Shown here piece by piece: positions 1,368 to 11,741 of a stretch of DNA of 23,102 nt. The translations under genes and the position numbers were made by a program. Positions within the stretch are counted from its first letter, which is position 1, and every line of letters begins with the position of its first letter. The notes below the pieces were generated by a model. It searched no databases and was not told where the DNA came from. It worked only from the letters and a program-made list of their open reading frames with translations. The stretch lies in the IMG/VR virus record IMGVR_UViG_3300034198_026895, positions 1 to 23,102 of that record. The stretch is one strand, 5' to 3'. This DNA comes from a virus.

Positions 1368-1390
1368 ACATCTGTTATAACAGAAAATTA

Positions 1391-1399
1391 TGGTATAAT
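1391..1399 (+). promoter_or_regulatory. Extended -10 promoter, leaderless start for the next gene
   Basis: TGG followed by TATAAT (1394-1399) forms an extended -10 element. Only seven bases separate it from the ATG at 1407, so transcription should begin at or next to the start codon, and there is no room for a ribosome binding site. No convincing -35 box is seen. Leaderless mRNAs are common in actinobacteria. The start site is predicted from spacing only. Confidence 0.65.
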
Positions 1400-1406
1400 T
1401 ACTAAT

Positions 1407-1826
1407 ATGGCTGCTATTAATTTTCCAGATTCCCCCGCTGTAAACGATCAATTTTCTGTTGACGGCAGGACTTGGAAATGGACTGGAACTGTTTGGGAGT
1501 TTGTGGGGGTAGCATCAGTTTTACAAATTACAGAAAAAACTGCATCTCACACACTAGTTCTATCAGATAAAGATAAACTTATTGAAATGAACTCTGCAAG
1601 TGCTAACACTTTGACGGTACCGCTAAACTCATCGCAAGCATTTCAAATAGGAAGTCAACTTAATATTTTACAAACTGGAGCTGGACAGACAACAATAGCT
1701 CCAGTAAACGGCAGCGTCATCATAAATGCAACACCAGGACTTAAACTAAGAGCACAATGGTCTTCTGCTACCCTGATTAAAAGAGCTGAAAATGTTTGGG
1801 TGCTAGCTGGAGACCTTGTACTATGA
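1407..1826 (+). CDS. INFPDSP-type phage tail-fibre/appendage protein
   Basis: This 139-residue protein begins MAAINFPDSPAVNDQFSVDG followed by RTWKWTGTVWEFVG. This N-terminal module occurs in many phage tail appendage proteins. The rest is a beta-rich domain with repeated Thr/Ser/Gln (about residues 40-139), with no catalytic motif. It appears to be transcribed from its own leaderless promoter at 1391-1399. Its stop TGA overlaps the next ATG (ATGA at 1823-1826), which fixes the start of the downstream gene. A truncated paralogue of its first 21 residues, with a similar promoter, lies at 10540-10617. Confidence 0.7.
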   Translation: MAAINFPDSPAVNDQFSVDGRTWKWTGTVWEFVGVASVLQITEKTASHTLVLSDKDKLIEMNSASANTLTVPLNSSQAFQIGSQLNILQTGAGQTTIAPVNGSVIINATPGLKLRAQWSSATLIKRAENVWVLAGDLVL

Positions 1827-3385
1827 GAAAAGTATTTTTTGGTATAGCATCTGTAAGAAAAACCTTTAAAGATATATTTTCAGCTAGAGCTAATACCACT
1901 GGATCTTTAGGCACTGCTAGTGATGGTAGTCAGTGGCAAGCTATTTCAAAAATAATTACGGTTCTGAGTGGTAAAGCTGTAGCTAATTACGTACCCCAGC
2001 CAGCAGACGCTGGTAGCGAGTATCCAATCGCAGTAATTAACATGCCTACACAAAATAACATCATTACTTTAGAAGATACTGATATTGGTTCTGGTGTAGC
2101 TCTATGGGTACAAACAAGTGCTGACTGGTGGATGGTATCTGTAGATTCAGCATATAACACTATTCCAGCAGCCACCAACTATACTTCTGCACCAGCAACA
2201 TTTAGTGGCCAAGCAAACTATACTATGGAAACTACCTATAGCTCTTCAGAGGCAGGCTTTAGTGTCGGAGATGTATATTCTTCAGGAGTCGCAACATACT
2301 CTATTTTACCATCAGAATATTCTTCTGGAATATCAAGTTATACTGCTGGCTTAGATACTTATACCTCATCTGTAGATACTTATTCTTCCACCCCAACATT
2401 TTCATCAAGCACTCCATTTACTAGCTTGCAGCCATTTAGTTCTGTTCAGGTTTTTTCTTCAGCTACCCCATTTTCAAGTGCACAAAATTATTTTAGTCAA
2501 AATAATGCTTATACTTCATTTGCTAATTTTACTTCAGGAACTGTCTTCAGTAGGTTTACTCCTTATACTAGAGCAGCCACCCTGTATACTCAAAACTTTA
2601 CAAGACAATATACACGAAGGCCATCTCCTTTAGCTTATACTAGAAATTACACTTCTGCATACTTTTCTTCACTAGGAAATGTTTGGTCTAGCGCAGCTTT
2701 CTATACCGCAGGTACCGTCTATACCTCAGTCATTAATGGTCTTACCGCATCCCAATCTTGGACCTCTGCAGCAGCTACTTTCACTGCAGGAACAACAACT
2801 TATACTGCAGATCCAACAACCTATACTGCAGGACTAACAGCTTATACTGCAGGGCTAGATGTTTATACAGCTGCTACATTTTATACTAGTGCTGGAGGAA
2901 CCTTTTCCTCAGCAACTGCATTTACTTCTACAACACCATTTAGCTCTGCTACCCCATATTCAAGTGCAACAACTTTTTCTTCTGCTACAAATTATTTTGC
3001 AGATCTTGTTTTTTCTAGTGGTCTAACCTATAGTGCTGGAACTAGCTATATATCAGCAGTTGCATATACATCTAACTATATTCCAGAAAGTTTTGCCTAT
3101 TCTGCCATTCTGAGAATCTCTCAATCAGTAAGCGATACTGTGTCAGAAATTTCTTCTTCAATAGTTTCTACCGCACAAACAATTAAGTCAATAATTGTTC
3201 AAACCTCTGGAAATCAAATCACAGCTAAAGCCTTTTCAGACATAACCCCCATTACCCAAATTGGAGATGACTTGATTTACAACGCCACAGGTGTCATAAT
3301 AAATACAAGATACGGAATATCAATATCAAAAGCAGAGTATACAAATAGCGAGATTGGAAGCTCTGTAAAGATAGAAAGAGGATAG
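1823..3385 (+). CDS. Aromatic/Ser/Thr repeat fibre-like protein
   Basis: I chose ATG at 1823 because it overlaps the previous stop (ATGA); an in-frame TTG at 1796 would add nine residues inside the upstream gene. The product is 520 residues. Residues 1-115 are a non-repetitive N-terminal domain. Residues about 120-425 are a chain of roughly 45 short units of six or seven residues, each starting with Phe or Tyr followed by Ser/Thr, Ser/Ala and Gly/Ala (for example FSSATPF, YTAGLTAYTAGLDVY). Residues 430-520 are a non-repetitive C-terminal domain rich in Ile and Ser. No signal peptide or enzyme motif is seen. Regular aromatic spacing suggests a beta-structured stalk, and the location after a fibre gene suggests a virion appendage. 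I do not recognise a named family. Confidence 0.6.
   Translation: MRKVFFGIASVRKTFKDIFSARANTTGSLGTASDGSQWQAISKIITVLSGKAVANYVPQPADAGSEYPIAVINMPTQNNIITLEDTDIGSGVALWVQTSADWWMVSVDSAYNTIPAATNYTSAPATFSGQANYTMETTYSSSEAGFSVGDVYSSGVATYSILPSEYSSGISSYTAGLDTYTSSVDTYSSTPTFSSSTPFTSLQPFSSVQVFSSATPFSSAQNYFSQNNAYTSFANFTSGTVFSRFTPYTRAATLYTQNFTRQYTRRPSPLAYTRNYTSAYFSSLGNVWSSAAFYTAGTVYTSVINGLTASQSWTSAAATFTAGTTTYTADPTTYTAGLTAYTAGLDVYTAATFYTSAGGTFSSATAFTSTTPFSSATPYSSATTFSSATNYFADLVFSSGLTYSAGTSYISAVAYTSNYIPESFAYSAILRISQSVSDTVSEISSSIVSTAQTIKSIIVQTSGNQITAKAFSDITPITQIGDDLIYNATGVIINTRYGISISKAEYTNSEIGSSVKIERG
2180..3097 (+). repeat. Degenerate 18-21 base coding repeat (aromatic hexads/heptads)
   Basis: The coding sequence repeats a unit of 18 or 21 bases encoding [FY][ST][SA][AG] plus two or three variable residues, about 45 times. 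Near-identical copies occur close together, for example TATACTGCAGG recurring between about 2800 and 2860, so slippage or recombination could change the copy number. Confidence 0.75.
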
Positions 3386-3386
3386 A

Positions 3387-4076
3387 TTGAAAGTTATAAG
3401 ATTTTTTTCACAAAAACATTATATGGGACTAGGACAGCCTCAACCAGCAAAAAAGTTTTTACCAAAGTGGTATAAAGATTCTGAAACTGTAACTATAGAC
3501 GAGCAGGGCGAAGAGCATTCTGGTCTAAAAAGATGTATTCCATTCTTAGACTCAATGATTAGTGGGTATATGCTTGTAACCCCAGTAGATATTTTTATAT
3601 CAAAAAACAAAGATGAATCTTTAAATATTAGATGGAATTCTGCAGAATCCTTTGAAGATTTTATAGCCGAAAGAGGAAAAGACTTAGGAGAAAAAATTCC
3701 AAGACCAGCTGGTCATTATCCAAATCATTTAGCATTTAGAGGATTCTGGGGTATGAAAACTCCTAGAGGATGGAGCATGTTAGTAGTTCAACCGCTAAAT
3801 AGATTTGATTTGCCATGGACCATCACTTCTGGCATAATGGATACAGATAAGTATTCAACTAGCGGAAATATTCCATTTTTTGTTAGAGAAGATTTTGAGG
3901 GTATGGTTCCAGCAGGAACACCCTTCGCACAACTTTTACCAATCAAAAGAAAATCTTGGAAATCTGTTCATAATGACCAAGGTATTGCTTATCTAGAAAC
4001 TCTACAAGGAGCCACTGTAAGAACTCCAGGCAAAAGCTATAAAAAATTATTTTGGATTAGAAAAGATTATAATTAA
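3387..4076 (+). CDS. Conserved phage protein of unknown function, paralogue 1
   Basis: This 229-residue protein starts with TTG, preceded by an AGAAAGAGG ribosome site (3373-3381), directly after the upstream TAG. Landmarks in order are PAKKFLPKWYKD (about 21-32), LKRCIPFLDSMISGYM (about 47-62), RGFWGMKTPRGWSMLVVQPLNRFDLPW (two adjacent motifs, about 118-145), DTDKYS (about 152) and FVREDFEGMVPAGTPFAQLLPIKR (two adjacent motifs, about 165-188). I recognise this motif order from uncharacterised proteins in many large environmental phages. No catalytic role is known to me. The gene at 4442 shows the same motif order in 217 residues, so the two are diverged duplicates. It begins a run of nearly gapless genes ending at 7863. 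Confidence 0.65.
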   Translation: MKVIRFFSQKHYMGLGQPQPAKKFLPKWYKDSETVTIDEQGEEHSGLKRCIPFLDSMISGYMLVTPVDIFISKNKDESLNIRWNSAESFEDFIAERGKDLGEKIPRPAGHYPNHLAFRGFWGMKTPRGWSMLVVQPLNRFDLPWTITSGIMDTDKYSTSGNIPFFVREDFEGMVPAGTPFAQLLPIKRKSWKSVHNDQGIAYLETLQGATVRTPGKSYKKLFWIRKDYN

Positions 4077-4077
4077 A

Positions 4078-4458
4078 ATGAGACAAAGAAGCAAAAAACA
4101 AATTTATGAAAATCTTTTAAGCGAGCACAGACCAACCATTAAAAGCTTTTTGTTAGAAATTTTAAGAATAAAGTTATTTAACTTACAAAAGGGTAAGCAG
4201 CCAGTTATTCCAGAAGGAGCAACTTGGACTTTAGAAGATGATAGACTAAAAAATTTACCATTGCAGTACATAGCCTTGATTAATAAAGAAGGCATCGTCA
4301 TTGAGCTAATTAGGATTAATAAAGAAACTGCAGATCAAATTTTAAGCAAAGACATAAAGCTAGTTCCGTACAATCCACAAATTGAGCTTGTAAAAAAGGG
4401 TATGTGGTACAATAAAAGAAAATTTTATCCAAAGGTGCAAAATGAAAAAGAAGATTAG
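4078..4458 (+). CDS. Hypothetical protein between two paralogues
   Basis: This 126-residue, Lys/Ile/Leu-rich basic protein starts one base after the preceding stop codon and overlaps the next gene by 17 bases. It has a Leu/Ile-rich helical N-terminus (about residues 10-40), then GATWTLEDDRLKNLPLQYIALINKEG, and a strongly basic C-terminus. I do not recognise a family and see no enzyme motif, signal peptide or membrane segment. Tight coupling to the two paralogous genes around it suggests a shared function with them. Confidence 0.55.
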   Translation: MRQRSKKQIYENLLSEHRPTIKSFLLEILRIKLFNLQKGKQPVIPEGATWTLEDDRLKNLPLQYIALINKEGIVIELIRINKETADQILSKDIKLVPYNPQIELVKKGMWYNKRKFYPKVQNEKED

Positions 4459-5095
4459 TTTTAGATCAGTTCATCCAGACTTAAATCTGCCACATCCAGT
4501 TCCAGCTTATAAGGCTATTCCAGAGTGGTATCGGACATCTAAGCCATTTGTAGCAGGAATTGAAACTTTAAAGAAATGTGTTCCACTTCTTGACTCTATG
4601 ACCGCAGGATACACGCTTACGCTTGCCGCAGATGTGTTTTTTAATAGGGGTGTTGTCCAAGATATATCCATAACTCACGTTGTTGAAGCTCACGCAGATG
4701 CTCAAATTGGCAATTTAAAAATTACCCCAGAATATTACGAAACTGTTTACAAGTGGATAAACTCTTTTGTGTTAAAAACACCAAAGGGATATAGCACACT
4801 ATTTGTTCACCCAATAAACAGAATTGATTTGCCTTTCTATAGCTTTTCTGGACTTGTAGATACCGACAAATTTCCAGTGGAAGTAAATTTTCCATTTCTA
4901 ATTAAAAAAGACTTTGTTGGCATTATTCCAGCAGGGACACCAATTGCTCAGGCCATACCAGTTAAAAGAGAAGACTGGTCCTCAAGTGTAGAAGATTCTT
5001 TAAGCTATCAACGTCCAGCTTTTACGCATACAATGCACAACCCACCTTTTAACTATTACAAGAAACACTTTTGGACAAGAAAGAAGTATTCTTAA
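4442..5095 (+). CDS. Conserved phage protein of unknown function, paralogue 2
   Basis: This 217-residue protein is homologous along its length to the product of 3387-4076. Shared landmarks are PAYKAIPEWYRTS, KKCVPLLDSMTAGYTL, FVLKTPKGYSTLFVHPINR with IDLPFYSFSGLVDTDKF following, and DFVGIIPAGTPIAQAIPVKR. Both copies end in a basic segment with FW and R-K (LFWIRKDY versus HFWTRKKY). The repeated conservation of DLPF/DLPW, DTDK and PAGTP suggests a folded domain with a common ligand, but the function is unknown. The start overlaps the preceding gene by 17 bases, and the stop overlaps the next ATG (TAATG). Confidence 0.65.
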   Translation: MKKKISFRSVHPDLNLPHPVPAYKAIPEWYRTSKPFVAGIETLKKCVPLLDSMTAGYTLTLAADVFFNRGVVQDISITHVVEAHADAQIGNLKITPEYYETVYKWINSFVLKTPKGYSTLFVHPINRIDLPFYSFSGLVDTDKFPVEVNFPFLIKKDFVGIIPAGTPIAQAIPVKREDWSSSVEDSLSYQRPAFTHTMHNPPFNYYKKHFWTRKKYS

Positions 5096-5439
5096 TGGAA
5101 AAAAAGAAAAAAAGAATTTGTGGAGAATGTCCAGAATGCAAGCTAGGACCAAAAACCTTTTGTTTTTGGCAAATAGATCAGGCTGTTCCAGAACACTTTA
5201 AGCCGTCGCTGATTAAAGCTTTTATTTCTCTAGAAGACGTGGATGGTTTTGGATATTTACAAGCAAAAGAAATGGACGATACCCAATTTAACTCAGAATT
5301 TTTGTCTTGGTTCTTGTCTTTTTGCGTAGGAAACAAAATTAACGTTTATTGGAAAACAAAAAATATTCCATTTTGCTTAGGAAGCACAGAGTTTATAGAA
5401 GCTTTGTCAAAGTCTTTTAAAGAAGCGGAAACAGAATAA
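5095..5439 (+). CDS. Small Cys-rich hypothetical protein
   Basis: I place the start at the ATG in the TAATG overlap (5093-5097). An in-frame TTG 24 bases upstream would lie inside the previous gene. The product is 114 residues. A basic N-terminus leads into CGECPECKLG (C9, C12, C15) and a further Cys at 22, which could bind zinc. The remainder is acidic and aromatic, with a hydrophobic stretch FLSWFLSFCVG around residue 70. No family is recognised. It ends in a TAATG overlap with a glycosyltransferase gene, which argues for co-translation and a role linked to the sugar cassette. Confidence 0.55.
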   Translation: MEKKKKRICGECPECKLGPKTFCFWQIDQAVPEHFKPSLIKAFISLEDVDGFGYLQAKEMDDTQFNSEFLSWFLSFCVGNKINVYWKTKNIPFCLGSTEFIEALSKSFKEAETE

Positions 5440-6527
5440 TGGAAAACCTAAAAAGTTTTTTCTTAAGAAAAAGAAAGAATATTGTTAAAACAATAGAGAT
5501 GTCCTATATGGATGAATACGATAGGCTAGATTACTATGAAGGAGTCTATACGGTAAGAAATATTGTACCCGAAACAAGCGACGATCTTTTTTATTTTATT
5601 CCAGATTTAAACATGATTCCTGGATACATAGACTCAACTTCTAAAAAAACATTAAACATTCTAAGTAATAAAAACAAACTAGTAGTTTCTATGGTAAACA
5701 GCTTTTATCATTCATTATTAGACAACATGTCAGAAGTTATTTACGCAATGGAATCATATCCTAAGCACGAAATAATTATTGATGTTAGTGAAACAAACGA
5801 ATCACTTAAACAAGATCCTTCCAAAGGATTTATGTATCATAATGTGTTTCTTTACTTTTTAGAAACTCTAAAGATAAAAAAAATAAAATATAGGATTGTA
5901 AATTTAAAAAAATATGACATCATCTATATAAATAATTTTAGGGTAGTAGCATACGATCTTGAGACAATTAAGAAAGCTAGCGTAGTTTATGATTTTTTTA
6001 AGACACGTCTTTCAAATCCAGACGCAAAGCCAACCAGAAAAGTTTTTATTAGCAGAGCTTTGACAGCTGGAAGAGACTATGATGCACCAACACTATCTCA
6101 TTCTAACGACGATAGGATGGATGACCACGAAAAACTAGACAACTTATTTGAGTCTATGGGGTATGAGATTGTGAAAACAGAAGAACTTGAATCTTTTCAA
6201 GAACAGCTAGATCTTTTTTATGAAACAAAAGTTCTAGCATCAATAACTGGATCAGGTTTGGCTAATGCGGCTTTTATGCAACCAGGACAGACGCTTATTG
6301 AAATTATTACACCACTTGTGGTTCCAGTTGGAGCTCCTGGACTTCCAAAAGATATAACAAATCCTTATTACACTCAAGAGCTTCACAACTTTTATAAAAA
6401 CTTAGCATTCTATAAAGATCACACTTATTTTGGGATTCACAACAACTCTAGGAGCTTCGAGTTGCTGAACGACACAATTGAAAAAGATCATAGAATTAAG
6501 ACCTTTTTGGATAGGTCAGATGAATAA
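5439..6527 (+). CDS. Glycosyltransferase family 61-like protein, copy 1
   Basis: This 362-residue protein has the C-terminal signature of the GT61/DUF563 family: KVFISRAL (201-208), a helix-loop ending GYEIVKTEELESFQEQLDLF (241-260), then VLASITGSGLANAAFMQPGQ (265-284) and LIEII. The mid-domain FYHSLLDNMSEV (89-100) corresponds to the family's YYHWLFD-type motif. In canonical members the signature reads HGAGLTN; here the His is replaced by Gly (TGSGL), a change shared by all three copies in this window. GT61 enzymes transfer sugars such as xylose or N-acetylglucosamine onto glycans or proteins. The substrate here is unknown. The gene starts on a TAATG overlap and its end overlaps the next gene by eight bases. 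Confidence 0.7.
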   Translation: MENLKSFFLRKRKNIVKTIEMSYMDEYDRLDYYEGVYTVRNIVPETSDDLFYFIPDLNMIPGYIDSTSKKTLNILSNKNKLVVSMVNSFYHSLLDNMSEVIYAMESYPKHEIIIDVSETNESLKQDPSKGFMYHNVFLYFLETLKIKKIKYRIVNLKKYDIIYINNFRVVAYDLETIKKASVVYDFFKTRLSNPDAKPTRKVFISRALTAGRDYDAPTLSHSNDDRMDDHEKLDNLFESMGYEIVKTEELESFQEQLDLFYETKVLASITGSGLANAAFMQPGQTLIEIITPLVVPVGAPGLPKDITNPYYTQELHNFYKNLAFYKDHTYFGIHNNSRSFELLNDTIEKDHRIKTFLDRSDE

Positions 6528-7863
6528 TGCTTTTATCTTTGACTTAGATGGGGTGCTGATAGATAGTAAAGAGATTCACTTTGATGCCCTGAATCTTGCC
6601 CTATCTGAAATAGATAGCTCTTATGTAATATCTAAAGAAGAGCAGGCTTTGACTTATGAGGGGCTTAGCACAAAAGCAAAACTAGATATTCTGTCATACT
6701 CTAAGGGCTTGCCAAAAGAATTTCACAATGTTATATGGGAAAAGAAGCAAATCTATTCATCAAGAATGTTTCAGGTATTTAATAAAGATCAAGAACTAAT
6801 AGATTTATTTAAGCTTATAAAGTCATTTAATATAAAAATTGGTGTTGCAAGTAATGCCATAAGAGAGACAGTTGTTGGATCTTTAAAAAGTTTGGGAGTC
6901 TATGAATTTGTAGACTACGCCCTCAGCAACGAAGATGTTTCTAATCCAAAGCCAAATCCAGAAATTTATAAAGCAATGATGTCTTTGCTAGGATCTTCTG
7001 CGGAAACAACTATAATCTTTGAAGACAGCGAAATAGGACAGACAGCAGCTAAATCATCTTTGGCAAAACTGTTCCCAGTAACAGAAAGAAAAGATATTTC
7101 ATTATCATATATATCCAAAGCCATAGAGTTTTTGACACCTAATAGTTTTCCAAATATATTAATACCAATGGCAGGAAACGGCTCTAGATTTTTTAATGCT
7201 GGATATAAAGACCCAAAACCATTAATTGATGTTGATGGAAAGCCTATGATTCAAAGGGTAGTTGAAAACATTAAAATCCCTGGAAACTATATTTTTATTG
7301 TTCAAGCTGAGCATTATGAAAGATACACCCTTGAAGTTATTCTTACAAGACTTGTTCCAAGATGCAGAATTATGCAGGTAAACGGAGTAACTGACGGGGC
7401 AGCTAGAACAGCCTTGCTGGCAAAAGAGTATATAAACAACCAGAGACCACTAATAATTGCAAACTCTGACCAGCTTTTAGACTGGGATAGCTCAGAGTTT
7501 ATGTCTCAACTACTTGAGATTGGAGCTGATGGAAATATGGCTCTATTTCTAGCTAATGAAGAGAAGTGGTCTTATGCAAAAATTAAGAATAACAGGATTG
7601 TAGAAGTAGCAGAAAAAGTAGTTATAAGTAATAATGCTAGCACGGGAATCTACGGGTGGGCAAAAGGCTCTGACTACGTAAAATATGCAGAACAAATGAT
7701 TGAGAAAAACATTATGGTAAACAATGAATTCTATATCTGTCCAGTGTATAACGAAGCAATTCAAGACAACAAAAGAATTTTGCCAATGTTTATAGATGCT
7801 ATGCATGGCCTAGGAACACCAGAAGATTTACAAAAGTTTTTGCTGCTAAAAGATAAGCTCTAA
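6520..7863 (+). CDS. HAD-family phosphatase fused to sugar nucleotidyltransferase
   Basis: I chose ATG at 6520 because FIFDLDGV follows within four residues, as HAD proteins require; an in-frame TTG at 6478 would add 14 residues inside the upstream gene. The product is 447 residues. Residues 1-205 are a HAD phosphatase or phosphomutase-like domain with motif I DLDG (D8, D10), motif II at SNA (S111), motif III K144 in NPKPNP and motif IV ED (168-169). Residues 212-447 are a nucleotidyltransferase domain with MAGNGSRF (217-224), DPKPLIDVDGKPMI (231-244), ANSDQ (314-318) and GLGTPEDL (430-437), as in NDP-sugar pyrophosphorylases. Together they could process a sugar phosphate and activate it to an NDP-sugar for the neighbouring glycosyltransferases. 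Which sugar and nucleotide are used cannot be read from the sequence. Confidence 0.85.
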   Translation: MNNAFIFDLDGVLIDSKEIHFDALNLALSEIDSSYVISKEEQALTYEGLSTKAKLDILSYSKGLPKEFHNVIWEKKQIYSSRMFQVFNKDQELIDLFKLIKSFNIKIGVASNAIRETVVGSLKSLGVYEFVDYALSNEDVSNPKPNPEIYKAMMSLLGSSAETTIIFEDSEIGQTAAKSSLAKLFPVTERKDISLSYISKAIEFLTPNSFPNILIPMAGNGSRFFNAGYKDPKPLIDVDGKPMIQRVVENIKIPGNYIFIVQAEHYERYTLEVILTRLVPRCRIMQVNGVTDGAARTALLAKEYINNQRPLIIANSDQLLDWDSSEFMSQLLEIGADGNMALFLANEEKWSYAKIKNNRIVEVAEKVVISNNASTGIYGWAKGSDYVKYAEQMIEKNIMVNNEFYICPVYNEAIQDNKRILPMFIDAMHGLGTPEDLQKFLLLKDKL

Positions 7864-7880
7864 ATCAAAGCAAAACAAAG

Positions 7881-7889
7881 TGTTATAAT
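7881..7889 (+). promoter_or_regulatory. Extended -10 promoter upstream of glycosyltransferase copy 2
   Basis: TGT plus TATAAT (7884-7889) lies in the 87-base gap after 7863. Transcription would start near 7896, giving a leader of about 55 bases to the ATG at 7951. A GGAAGG (7931-7936) in the leader is the only ribosome-site-like element and is further than usual from the ATG. No clear -35 is present. Confidence 0.5.
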
Positions 7890-7950
7890 TAAATTAGAAA
7901 GATGACATAATCTTTAAACAACTTTTATATGGAAGGGCCCCAGCTATACC

Positions 7951-8838
7951 ATGGTTTGCAATAGAATAGAAAAAGTAAATAATATTCATAATATAAACCT
8001 ACACACTTTAGGCTCGTTTTGTGATTTTGAGCCAGGGTATTCCCCAGAAGGCTCTAGCTCTGTAAGCTTCTTAGAAGACAATAAAACATATGTAATCATA
8101 GACTCTAAGTCAAACTATCATCATTTTCTTTTAAACATTATGATGACAGCCCTTATGGTGCTAGAAGAGGTAAGCCACGAAGGCCTTCATTTTGTTTTGT
8201 GCAATATTAATTTGAGGGGTGGAAAAGAAAATTTTGACAACTTGCTGATAGAACTGTTACAAGAACGTGGTATCAGCTATACGCAAGTAGATAACTCTGA
8301 ATTTACATACCTAAATGCAAAAAACTTTATTCCAATAAATGGTGTAGATATTGAAGTTGGTGTTCCACTTTTATATAATTATCTTTTAAATAAATATAAT
8401 ATGGTTCCAGAAACACCAAACAAAAAAATATATATTAGTAGAAAGAATTATTCAAGTCCTGACATAAGAGTTGACAACGAAGAAATCTTAGAAAATTACT
8501 TTATAGAAAAGGGATTTGAGATAGTATATCCAGAAGATATAACTACTTTTAAAGAACAGTTTGAACTTTTTAATTCTTGCTCTACTTTGGCAGCGCTAAG
8601 TGGTTCTGGGCTAACAAGTTTAATATTTATGCAAGAAAATCAAAAAGTCATTGAAATATTAACAGAAGTAATGGTTGGTCATACAATTTCTGATAAATTA
8701 ATCGTAAATATTGTTTATGGCATCCACAATCACTATAGGGATATGGCACTTTTAAAAAACCACACATATCTTGTTGCCTTAAACTCAGAAAAACAAGCAG
8801 AGCTAGTTAAAGCCAAGCTTGATAATATAGAGCTTTAG
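7951..8838 (+). CDS. Glycosyltransferase family 61-like protein, copy 2
   Basis: This is a 295-residue paralogue of the proteins at 5439 and 9507. Landmarks are NYHHFLLNIMMTALMVLEE (55-73, the YYHWLFD-type motif), KKIYISRKN (158-166), GFEIVYPEDITTFKEQFELF (188-207) and LAALSGSGLTSLIFM (213-227), followed by VIEIL. A C-terminal IHNHYRDMALLKNHTYL element matches IHNFYKTFSVLKNHTYI of copy 3 and LHNFYKNLAFYKDHTYF of copy 1. It is the shortest copy, with a reduced N-terminal region. Its own extended -10 lies upstream, so it may be expressed separately from the preceding operon. The start is less certain than for the coupled genes, because the ribosome site is poorly placed. Confidence 0.7.
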   Translation: MVCNRIEKVNNIHNINLHTLGSFCDFEPGYSPEGSSSVSFLEDNKTYVIIDSKSNYHHFLLNIMMTALMVLEEVSHEGLHFVLCNINLRGGKENFDNLLIELLQERGISYTQVDNSEFTYLNAKNFIPINGVDIEVGVPLLYNYLLNKYNMVPETPNKKIYISRKNYSSPDIRVDNEEILENYFIEKGFEIVYPEDITTFKEQFELFNSCSTLAALSGSGLTSLIFMQENQKVIEILTEVMVGHTISDKLIVNIVYGIHNHYRDMALLKNHTYLVALNSEKQAELVKAKLDNIEL

Positions 8839-8845
8839 TTAAAAT

Positions 8846-9286
8846 ATGTTAAAAATAGCTCATAGGGGAAACCTCAAAGGACCATCGCCAAGAGAAAACC
8901 ATCCATCCTATATTGAAGAAGCAATCTACGCAGGATTTGACGTAGAGGTTGATATTCGTTTAATAAATAACAAACTTTGGCTAGGACATGACGAGCCTCA
9001 ATATTTAACATCTAAAAATTTTTTAAATAGATATAAAGACAGTCTTTGGATTCACTGTAAAAATCTAGAAGCATTGGAATACTTTGTTAATTCAAAAGAA
9101 GACTTCAAATACTTTTGGCATGAAGAGGATAGCTACACTTTAACAAGTAATGGTTTAATTTGGACCTATCCAAGAAAGCCTATTACTGATAGGTCTATTC
9201 TTGTTCTTAATGGCCAAGAGTCACTACCACATACTGACACAGTCTTTGGTATTTGCAGTGACTATGTAAAGACTATATCCGATTAG
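8846..9286 (+). CDS. Minimal glycerophosphodiester phosphodiesterase-like protein
   Basis: This 146-residue protein carries active-site landmarks of the PI-PLC-like/GDPD fold: AHRGN (5-9), EN (17-18), YAGFDVEVDIR (28-38, with the E34 and D36 metal ligands), LGHDEP (46-51), WIHCKN (68-73), and LTSNGLIWTYP (99-109). Classical bacterial GDPDs have about 240 residues, so this is a compact phage form that I recognise from other large phages. GDPDs cleave glycerophosphodiesters to glycerol-3-phosphate and an alcohol. In this setting the substrate could be a teichoic-acid-like polymer, a phosphodiester-linked glycan or a lipid head group; this is inference. It begins seven bases after the preceding stop. 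Confidence 0.7.
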   Translation: MLKIAHRGNLKGPSPRENHPSYIEEAIYAGFDVEVDIRLINNKLWLGHDEPQYLTSKNFLNRYKDSLWIHCKNLEALEYFVNSKEDFKYFWHEEDSYTLTSNGLIWTYPRKPITDRSILVLNGQESLPHTDTVFGICSDYVKTISD

Positions 9287-9314
9287 CTTATAGGCACCTT
9301 GGATTTTTTTGAAG

Positions 9315-9325
9315 TACAATATAAT
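9315..9325 (+). promoter_or_regulatory. Probable leaderless -10 element for the 51-residue gene
   Basis: TACAAT (9315-9320) lies exactly six bases before ATG at 9327, the same geometry as the promoters at 1394, 10540, 11860 and 21295. An overlapping TATAAT (9320-9325) is too close to the ATG to serve it. It follows a T-run (9304-9310). No ribosome site is present. Confidence 0.4.
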
Positions 9326-9326
9326 T

Positions 9327-9482
9327 ATGAGAATTATTAAAATAATAAAGTCCGTAATATGCCAACTAAAAGGACACGAGCTTACTGTAGCCCAATGCCC
9401 AGTAACAAGATTTAAGTCTAAAACTTGCAACGTGTGCCTAATTAAGTTTGGTCCAGAGCATAAGGGAGCGAGCTTTTCGTAA
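9327..9482 (+). CDS. 51-residue Cys-rich small protein
   Basis: ATG at 9327 opens a 51-codon frame closed by TAA at 9480-9482. The product begins MRIIKIIKSVICQLKGHELT and contains C12, C24, and a CNVC pair (C34 and C37), then HKGASFS at the end. The order Cys, Gly-His, Cys, Cys-x-x-Cys is shared by small uncharacterised phage proteins and suggests a zinc-binding knuckle. The gene fills an otherwise unexplained gap between two genes and has a -10 element at leaderless spacing. Its short length keeps the confidence moderate. The function is unknown. Confidence 0.6.
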   Translation: MRIIKIIKSVICQLKGHELTVAQCPVTRFKSKTCNVCLIKFGPEHKGASFS

Positions 9483-9506
9483 CTACTAAAAGCTGTTTAG
9501 ACTAAC

Positions 9507-10502
9507 ATGACAAGTAATAAATATGACTTCTACCACATTCACGATAAAAGCGGATTTGCTGTTCATATAAACGAAAAGGTTTTATTTTCAGAACAAAATT
9601 TTAACAAAGAAGTCACCCTTATGACCTCTTATTTTAATAAAAATGTGCCAGATGTTGTAGACGAAAATGCTGTTGTAGAAATAATAAACGACAACTTTAA
9701 GGGCTTAATTCAAATTCCAGATAGCTATTTTCACTATTTCCCAGACTTTATTGGACCAATTTTTGTTTTTTTAGAAAACTGTATAAAAAGCAATATCAAA
9801 AAAGTAGAGCTTGTTTTAATAGAGATTGAAGAGAAGCAACCAATTGTTAAGGAGTTTGAGTCATTTTTAAACTACTGCTTAGACACATTTAGAGATAAAA
9901 TTGAAATTTCTTATGTGACTATAAATCAAGCCAACAAAGGAAAAAATCCATCTGAAACCTATATTAGAATAAACAACTCTACAGTAATTGATCAATACGA
10001 TATTGGAATTTCTTTAGACTTTATATATGAAAGTGCAAAAGGTTTTGCTAATTTATCAGAAGATTCTGTACCAAACAAGAAAGTTTTTTTATCTAGAAAG
10101 AACGATGTACATAAAGATAAATCACCCAACAGGCATATCTATGAAGATGATGCAGAAGAATTTTTTAGGTCAATAGGTTTTGAGATTGTTAATGGTGAGT
10201 CTTTTGGCAGTCTTAAAAAACAAATAGAATTCTTTGATCAGGTTAGTGTTTTTGCAGGGTATACTGGATCAGGCTTGACAAGTTCAATTTTTATGAAACC
10301 AGGACAAACCTTGATAGAAGTTGTTTGCCCAATAAAATTTGGAACCTGTGGGCAAGATAGCGGGGATGAGTGGGAGATTCACAACTTTTACAAAACCTTC
10401 TCAGTACTAAAAAACCACACATATATAGCTGTTCCAAATGTTGACAGAAGCAAAGAAAGCTTTTTAAGAGATATTAAAAAAGTGTTGAGCGGGTTGGTAT
10501 AA
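9507..10502 (+). CDS. Glycosyltransferase family 61-like protein, copy 3
   Basis: This 331-residue protein has the same family signature as the copies at 5439 and 7951: YFHYFPDFIGPIFVFLE (74-90), KKVFLSRKN (191-199), RSIGFEIVNGESFGSLKKQIEFF (split across 221-243), YTGSGLTSSIFMKPGQTLIEV (two adjacent motifs, 252-271) and EIHNFYKTFSVLKNHTYIAV near the end. The catalytic-site His of canonical HGAGL is again replaced (TGSGL). The N-terminal 70 residues do not resemble those of copies 1 or 2. The start codon follows TTTAGA at close spacing, but no ribosome site is visible. The stop TAA overlaps an ATG (TAATG) that opens only an eight-residue frame, a sign that the original downstream gene has been lost. 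Confidence 0.7.
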   Translation: MTSNKYDFYHIHDKSGFAVHINEKVLFSEQNFNKEVTLMTSYFNKNVPDVVDENAVVEIINDNFKGLIQIPDSYFHYFPDFIGPIFVFLENCIKSNIKKVELVLIEIEEKQPIVKEFESFLNYCLDTFRDKIEISYVTINQANKGKNPSETYIRINNSTVIDQYDIGISLDFIYESAKGFANLSEDSVPNKKVFLSRKNDVHKDKSPNRHIYEDDAEEFFRSIGFEIVNGESFGSLKKQIEFFDQVSVFAGYTGSGLTSSIFMKPGQTLIEVVCPIKFGTCGQDSGDEWEIHNFYKTFSVLKNHTYIAVPNVDRSKESFLRDIKKVLSGLV

Positions 10503-10528
10503 TGTCTGGTGTTTTGGATTTTAGTTAA
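10502..10528 (+). pseudogene. Possible eight-codon remnant of a polyglycine-adhesin start
   Basis: After the TAATG overlap the frame encodes only MSGVLDFS before TAA. The 13 bases TAATGTCTGGTGT (10500-10512) are identical to 159-171, the junction where the glycine-rich adhesin begins (MSGVF). Both sit on a stop-start overlap. This may be the stump of a second adhesin gene; the match is short and could be chance. Confidence 0.35.
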
Positions 10529-10539
10529 TTAATATAGGG

Positions 10540-10545
10540 TAGAAT
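10540..10545 (+). promoter_or_regulatory. Leaderless-type -10 element upstream of a truncated gene
   Basis: TAGAAT lies six bases before the ATG at 10552. The local context GGTAGAAT matches GGTATAAT before the intact paralogue at 1407, so the promoter was probably duplicated with the gene. If active it would now drive transcription through the scar into the ABC-GNAT gene. Confidence 0.5.
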
Positions 10546-10551
10546 AAAATT

Positions 10552-10617
10552 ATGCCTATTGATTTTCCAAACACCCCATCCGTAAATTACTCATTTACAG
10601 TAGGAGACCGCGGTTAA
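10552..10617 (+). pseudogene. 5' stump of an INFPDSP-type tail gene
   Basis: ATG at 10552 encodes MPIDFPNTPSVNYSFTVGDR, then Gly and a stop. It aligns with the first 22 residues of the tail protein at 1407 (MAAINFPDSPAVNDQFSVDG, then RTW), up to the point where the intact protein continues into Arg-Thr-Trp. The homology ends at GACCGC, and the sequence then changes character. This is the beginning of a diverged paralogue that has lost the rest of its coding region, most simply by a deletion with its endpoint near 10605-10612. Confidence 0.65.
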
Positions 10618-10675
10618 TTCAGTAAAAGTTAAAGATTTTTTACAAAGACTAGGAGTGTTAAAGCGCAATGACTAA
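10604..10675 (+). pseudogene. Possible 3' end of a lost gene
   Basis: In the frame one base over from the stump, an open stretch of 23 codons without a start codon ends NSVKVKDFLQRLGVLKRND and a TAA at 10673-10675. It overlaps the start of the ABC-GNAT gene (ATGACTAA), as intact neighbours in this window do. This looks like the end of a gene whose beginning is missing, joined to the tail-gene stump. A +1 frameshift could read across both pieces as about 40 residues, but no slippery motif is evident. Confidence 0.4.
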
Positions 10676-11741
10676 TTGGAAAAAACTAGAGCGTTCAGAG
10701 ACGGCCCTAACATCTAAAGTAGAAATGGACGAGCTGACTTTAGATTTAATAAAGCCTTTTGACTACAATTCAGATGGAACTGAAAAGTTCTACCCCTACT
10801 TACTTCCAAAAGATTTGCCTACAGATTTTGGAATCGGTGTAATAGTAGGAGCCTCTGGTACAGGTAAGTCGACGTTATTAAAGTCATTTGGAGAACCAGA
10901 AAATCCAAAGTGGAGTGACGGCTCTATAGCTTCTAACTTTGAGAGCCCGGTGGATGCTAATGAAAAGCTATCTGCAGCTGGACTTATGTCAGTTCCAGAA
11001 TGGGTTAAGCCATTTAAAGTTTTGTCTAATGGTCAGCAGTTTAGAGCCAACCTAGCTCGCTCTTTAGAAAACTCTTCTGTGATTGATGAGTTTACTTCAG
11101 TCATTGATAGAAACGTCGCTAAGGCTGCTTCAAATGCTATGGCAAGATACGTACGTAAAAATAATGTCAAAGGAATAGTTATTGCAACTGTTCATAGAGA
11201 CATTCTTGAGTACCTCGAGCCAGACTGGGTTATAGACACAGACCGTGGCGAGTGGACCTCAGAAAGGTATCTTCATCGACCTGAATTGGTACTCGACATT
11301 TATCCTGCCTCAAACAAGATTTGGGAGCACTTCGCTCAGTATCACTATCTCACCGAATCGCTCAACCGTTCAGCACGATGCTATGTGGGTGTCTGGGAAG
11401 GACAAGTAGTTGGTTTTGTTGCCACTATGTCTTACCCGTCTGGGACAGTGCAAAAAGCTTTTAGAGAGCATAGATTAGTAATCCACCCAGACTATCAAGG
11501 CCTAGGACTTGGTCCACGTCTTTCAGAAGTAGTTGCCCAGCATTACATAGATAACGGTAAACGTTATTTTTCTAAGACTAGCCACCCACGCCTAGGCGGG
11601 TATAGGGACCAGTCGGTAGTTTGGAAGCCAACCTCCAAAAATCACATGAAAAGGCTAGATGGCTTAAATCATAAAAAAATTAACCGCTGGGAAATAGACC
11701 CAAATCGCTGGAGCTATTCTCATGAATTTGTCGGCATTTAG
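10668..11741 (+). CDS. ABC-type ATPase fused to GNAT acetyltransferase (COG2401-like)
   Basis: This 357-residue protein has two parts. Residues about 50-200 are an ABC ATPase with Walker A GASGTGKST (61-69), an ABC-signature-like LSNGQQFRANLARSL (119-133), Walker B SSVIDEFTSVIDR (136-148) and H-loop TVHRD (174-178). Residues about 215-325 are a GNAT-type domain with YHYL (225-228), VGVWEGQVVGFV (240-251), and HRLVIHPDYQGLGLGPRL (268-285), the acetyl-CoA pyrophosphate-binding region. This combination matches COG2401. The pattern His-Tyr then GVWE also resembles the Mom GNAT of phage Mu, which modifies DNA adenine; a DNA or protein modification role is inferred. No membrane segments are present, so it is not a transporter. 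AGGAG at 10651-10655 precedes the ATG by 12 bases. A strong terminator follows. Confidence 0.8.
   Translation: MTNWKKLERSETALTSKVEMDELTLDLIKPFDYNSDGTEKFYPYLLPKDLPTDFGIGVIVGASGTGKSTLLKSFGEPENPKWSDGSIASNFESPVDANEKLSAAGLMSVPEWVKPFKVLSNGQQFRANLARSLENSSVIDEFTSVIDRNVAKAASNAMARYVRKNNVKGIVIATVHRDILEYLEPDWVIDTDRGEWTSERYLHRPELVLDIYPASNKIWEHFAQYHYLTESLNRSARCYVGVWEGQVVGFVATMSYPSGTVQKAFREHRLVIHPDYQGLGLGPRLSEVVAQHYIDNGKRYFSKTSHPRLGGYRDQSVVWKPTSKNHMKRLDGLNHKKINRWEIDPNRWSYSHEFVGI

Follow-up and report, generated by a model that had tools for sequence, protein, structure and literature searches.

Remnants of three genes at a likely mosaic joint between two phage lineages in a freshwater-type phage

In a 23,102-nucleotide stretch of viral DNA, referred to here as the window, two complete genes are separated by 165 bases that contain no complete gene. 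Upstream lies copy 3 of the GT61 glycosyltransferase gene of a sugar cassette; downstream lies the ABC-GNAT gene. Pfam Glyco_transf_61 was matched in both of the cassette glycosyltransferase copies that were tested. Both neighbours are intact, and the breaks in the sequence fall at or near gene boundaries. The initial annotation had described three short frames at 10500-10675. All three are present as described, and each is a broken piece that could be identified through intact relatives (Table 1). We refer to the region as the scar. The scar had no Rfam match and the tRNA scan was also empty; the break is therefore not explained by a known RNA element or a tRNA attachment site.

The upstream gene departs from its relatives in its final codons. 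Its C-terminus reads VLSGLV before the stop, where relatives carry VSKML or VSRMI in the alignment. The 16 bases at 10484-10499 have no certain origin. VLSGLV might be the last residues of a fibre gene or belong to an MSG gene start, but it is too short for either assignment.

Table 1. Features of the scar and its flanks (positions in the window).
Feature	Position	Strand	Evidence
Group A block: promoter, INFPDSP tail gene, 520-529 aa protein and GT61 sugar cassette	1386..10483	+	Continuous 86.9% DNA match to G004
GT61 glycosyltransferase copy 3, intact	9507..10502	+	Alignment with relatives
J1 zone: homology to all cassette-bearing relatives stops	10484..10503	+	Sequence comparison
Piece 1: start of Gly-rich MSG-type adhesin gene, ATG 10502, frame MSGVLDFS and stop	10500..10528	+	17/17 bases with L047 12593-12609
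J2: presumed point of change from A to B sequence	10517..10534	+	Piece 1 matches A, piece 2 matches B
GGTAGAAT promoter-like motif, 6 nt 5' of ATG 10552	10538..10545	+	Motif enriched upstream of ORFs
Piece 2: DFPN/INFPDSP tail gene, first 20 codons, one more codon and stop	10552..10617	+	G008rc 28535-28612
J3: deletion on the group B side, about 2.2 kb relative to G008	10611..10622	+	Homology limits
Piece 3: final 17 codons and stop of phrog_13596 PD-(D/E)XK nuclease-like gene	10622..10675	+	L002 4489-4917, L004 4583-5008
ABC-GNAT gene, intact, first gene of continuous group B backbone	10668..11741	+	87-88% aa to L002-L005; phrog_11143

Two groups of related contigs bear on the scar. Group A (G001, G003, G004 and L041) carries the tail genes and the sugar cassette, and group B (G008, L002 and L003) carries a nuclease-like gene, ABC-GNAT, a recombinase and a primase. 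Piece 1 had been reported to share 13 bases, TAATGTCTGGTGT, with the start of the polyglycine adhesin gene; this identity is present (159-171), and a longer match exists in contig L047. All 17 bases of TAATGTCTGGTGTTTTG (10500-10516) are identical there to the start of a 277-aa Gly-rich gene beginning MSGVLSALL. The TAATGTCTGG junction, a TAATG overlap leading from the end of a fibre gene to the start of an MSG gene, also occurs in G001, in G004 and at position 159 of the window. These matches identify piece 1 as the beginning of a Gly-rich adhesin gene of the MSGVL type.

Piece 2 encodes MPIDFPNTPSVNYSFTVGDRG before its stop codon and is preceded by GGTAGAAT. DNA from 10535 to 10611 aligned to G008 with a score of 66, compared to a mean of 22.0 for 300 shuffles (sd 2.3, maximum 33), whereas the best group A contig reached at most 37. 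The counterpart in G008 is the start of an intact 268-aa gene (MPIDFPNSPTVNDIYSVGNR...). The earlier proposal that this piece combines a promoter with the homologous start of a tail gene was upheld, with 20 codons matched and the G008 gene as the best relative; piece 2 marks the start of a tail gene whose nearest relative is in G008. A motif of the form GGTANAAT lies no more than 30 bases upstream of 20 of the 433 ORFs in the window and the group A and B contigs (1.1 expected), mostly 3-9 bases from the start codon. This spacing suggests leaderless promoters, and the surviving GGTAGAAT, a predicted promoter, may drive ABC-GNAT.

Piece 3 is a start-less frame of 23 codons (10604-10675) whose stop codon (10673-10675) overlaps the start of ABC-GNAT. 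Its final 17 codons, VKVKDFLQRLGVLKRND, match the C-terminus of an intact 142-aa gene of L002 with a score of 69; the corresponding values for 2,000 shuffles were a mean of 20, an sd of 3.6 and a maximum of 40. The parent gene (141-142 aa), assigned to phrog_13596, stands intact directly before ABC-GNAT in L002 and L004 with a similar ATGA overlap, and the same gene end was found before ABC-GNAT in L003 and L005. The initial annotation had taken this piece for the end of a tail gene, which was incorrect: phrog_13596 is nuclease-like. In marine phages it adjoins genes for DNA polymerase, exonuclease or ribonucleotide reductase, and in phages HTVC031P and HMO-2011 it is found among replication and nucleotide genes. 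The gene had no match in Pfam, and its invariant residues include E21 and KVEVKTD. The best hits to its predicted fold (pLDDT 84) were weak, namely I-Ssp6803I (E 0.025) and D212 (E 0.29). From this model, the product is probably a PD-(D/E)XK nuclease.

Each fragment of the scar therefore aligns to an end of an intact homologue, and the stubs are most likely non-functional. We also considered whether the short frames might act as leader peptides, or as a regulatory region of ABC-GNAT, instead of being debris. A phage-typical promoter-like motif retained 6 nt before ATG 10552 and a TATAAT box overlapping 10498-10503 would be consistent with such a role, but each frame is a fragment of a gene that is longer and intact in relatives, and the frames were absent upstream of ABC-GNAT in all 13 relatives inspected. 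Pattern scans for two of the frames gave no match, nor did Rfam. Conservation of the frames in relatives, which the initial annotation had named as the observation that would speak against remnants, was not found in contig scans. A functional role is very unlikely, and the three frames should be kept off the list of genes to annotate.

The flanks of the scar belong to different phage lineages. To the left, from 1386 onward, the window is group A, and this homology stops at 10483; from 10622/10625 to its end the window is group B, at 77.5% to L002 and 79% to G008. Between the groups, relatives in G008 were found for 10 of the 142 proteins of G001, with a median identity of 47%. ABC-GNAT and the primase were each found in none of seven cassette-bearing records and the recombinase in none of the four tested, although these records are fragmentary and absence from them is no proof. 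The ABC-GNAT records that were compared are without the sugar cassette. Tetranucleotide profiles were excluded as evidence, as those of the right half of the window and of group A were inseparable; Gly codons probably bias the profile of the first 1.4 kb. One named relative of the group B primase (67% identity) is that of Actinomycetia phage DSL-LC01, which comes from Dishui Lake (PMC10611076). This relationship suggests an actinobacterial host for the backbone.

Because the match of piece 1 is to group A and that of piece 2 to group B, the switch from A to B would lie between these two pieces, at J2. At J3, tail homology stops at 10611 and homology to the nuclease-like gene begins at 10622-10625. 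J1 is probably a third joint, so that a minimum of two joints, and probably three, is needed to explain the scar. These data bear on the initial annotation, in which a second tail-gene cassette once stood here and was removed by one deletion that left both ends. Tail-gene bodies are indeed missing and gene remnants do remain, and intact versions of each gene were found in relatives. However, the remaining ends derive from three genes and two lineages, and the right-hand one is nuclease-like and does not belong to a tail gene. A single deletion is also disfavoured by the change of lineage from piece 1 to piece 2, and we consider it extremely unlikely. The accompanying idea that the site is a boundary fared better: the sugar-cassette block ends here and fibre genes are exchanged here, with homology limits at 10483 and 10622. 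Overall, the initial annotation was largely right on mechanism, and its interpretation is supported in part.

Related genomes differ at the same places. G004 diverges from G001 and G003 just after glycosyltransferase copy 3 (G004rc 11248), and L002 diverges from G008 at the start of the nuclease-like gene; therefore both sides of the scar are also places of gene-content change in other genomes. The gene order of L002 (the end of a fibre-like gene, a Gly-rich gene, a promoter with the INFPDSP gene, the nuclease-like gene and ABC-GNAT) is colinear with the pieces.

Several further differences in gene content were observed. The break in G004 lies about six bases past the stop codon of glycosyltransferase copy 3 (G004rc near 11248; L047 8990-9050), and G004 is without the fourth glycosyltransferase that follows copy 3 in G001, G003 and L041. 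In L002, a predicted sulfotransferase-like gene occupies 3562-4440 on the opposite strand, with the LDENN gene on one side and the nuclease-like gene on the other. Within the cassette of the window, two paralogue-like proteins of 229 and 217 aa are encoded at 3387-4076 and 4442-5095; the one tested had no Pfam match. The MSGVF adhesin and MAHYAF genes (161-1367) stand to the left of the cassette in the window, while their relatives in G004 stand to its right; tail genes have therefore been reshuffled around the cassette.

We consider it likely that 10484-10675 is a natural mosaic joint of groups A and B, formed at a variable tail-gene boundary and retaining gene stubs. This joint is known from one metagenomic contig. 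Viral contigs scanned for pieces 1 and 2 with exact and degenerate patterns yielded no second genome with the same joint, a search of the window's own record found no second copy of the scar region, and none of the GTDB genomes searched for ABC-GNAT encodes it. An assembly chimera, in which A and B contigs were wrongly joined near 10517-10534, would account for the lineage changing exactly at the scar and for the lack of an independent contig across the joint in the viral contig scans; the window is, moreover, a 23 kb viral metagenome record. Several properties of the scar argue against such an artefact. Apart from the L047 17-mer, the longest exact match of the scar to the sequences fetched was 13 bases (every third base sampled), so the long shared word needed by a de Bruijn assembler was not found. 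The scar packs two or three separate joints into 140 bases, both neighbouring genes keep their reading frames along with proper start and stop codons, and L002 holds other cargo at the same position, in the interval between LDENN and the nuclease-like gene. We therefore regard a chimera as improbable.

For a natural joint, we infer the following course of events. A group A block of tail genes and sugar cassette would have entered a group B phage by recombination, in its variable tail-gene region and immediately 5' of the nuclease-like gene and ABC-GNAT. Deletions, either afterwards or along with the exchange, would have removed the gene bodies around the joint. The stubs left behind are an A-type MSGVL adhesin gene start, a B-type tail-gene promoter with the first 20 codons, and the last 17 codons of a B-type nuclease-like gene.

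The promoter-INFPDSP start that survives in piece 2 has a counterpart at the left-hand cassette edge (1386-1430). It is at this promoter that the A-continuous block begins, and at 10535-10560 a related gene has left its promoter and start in the scar. Two routes have been proposed for the exchanges near gene boundaries that characterize phage mosaicism, namely short conserved boundary sequences and illegitimate recombination (PMC3029335). It is conceivable, if doubtful, that the promoter with the INFPDSP/DFPN start, which opens many tail genes in both lineages as well as the left edge of the cassette, is a standard recombination handle. With such a handle, unrelated phages would exchange entire host-recognition and sugar modules at a docking site that precedes the nuclease-like gene and ABC-GNAT. 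Relaxed homologous recombination by phage recombinases (PMC3945230) could unite tail genes that have diverged yet hold a conserved start region in common; however, sequence comparison revealed no shared homology tract between the parents at J2 or J3.

The scar resembles the module boundaries of mycobacteriophages and other tailed phages (PMC3029335) in that exchange occurs near gene ends, flanking genes are intact, most joints have little or no shared sequence and cargo genes sit between conserved ones. It differs in that remnants of three or more genes survive within 140 bases, and its history is therefore partly readable. Distant phages are known to share host-recognition modules, as in Alteromonas phages A5 and V22, where a tail/fibre module is common to phages whose other genes differ (PMC10579305). 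The block described here is similar, but its cargo extends to sugar genes, GT61 glycosyltransferases among them. Taken as a natural joint, the scar is a clear yet ordinary case of phage genome mosaicism in a freshwater-type phage. It would then offer a piece-by-piece view of how a tail and sugar-modification block can pass from one uncultured phage lineage to another. It also suggests a fixed site of exchange, ahead of the nuclease-like gene and ABC-GNAT, for which other genomes can be examined.
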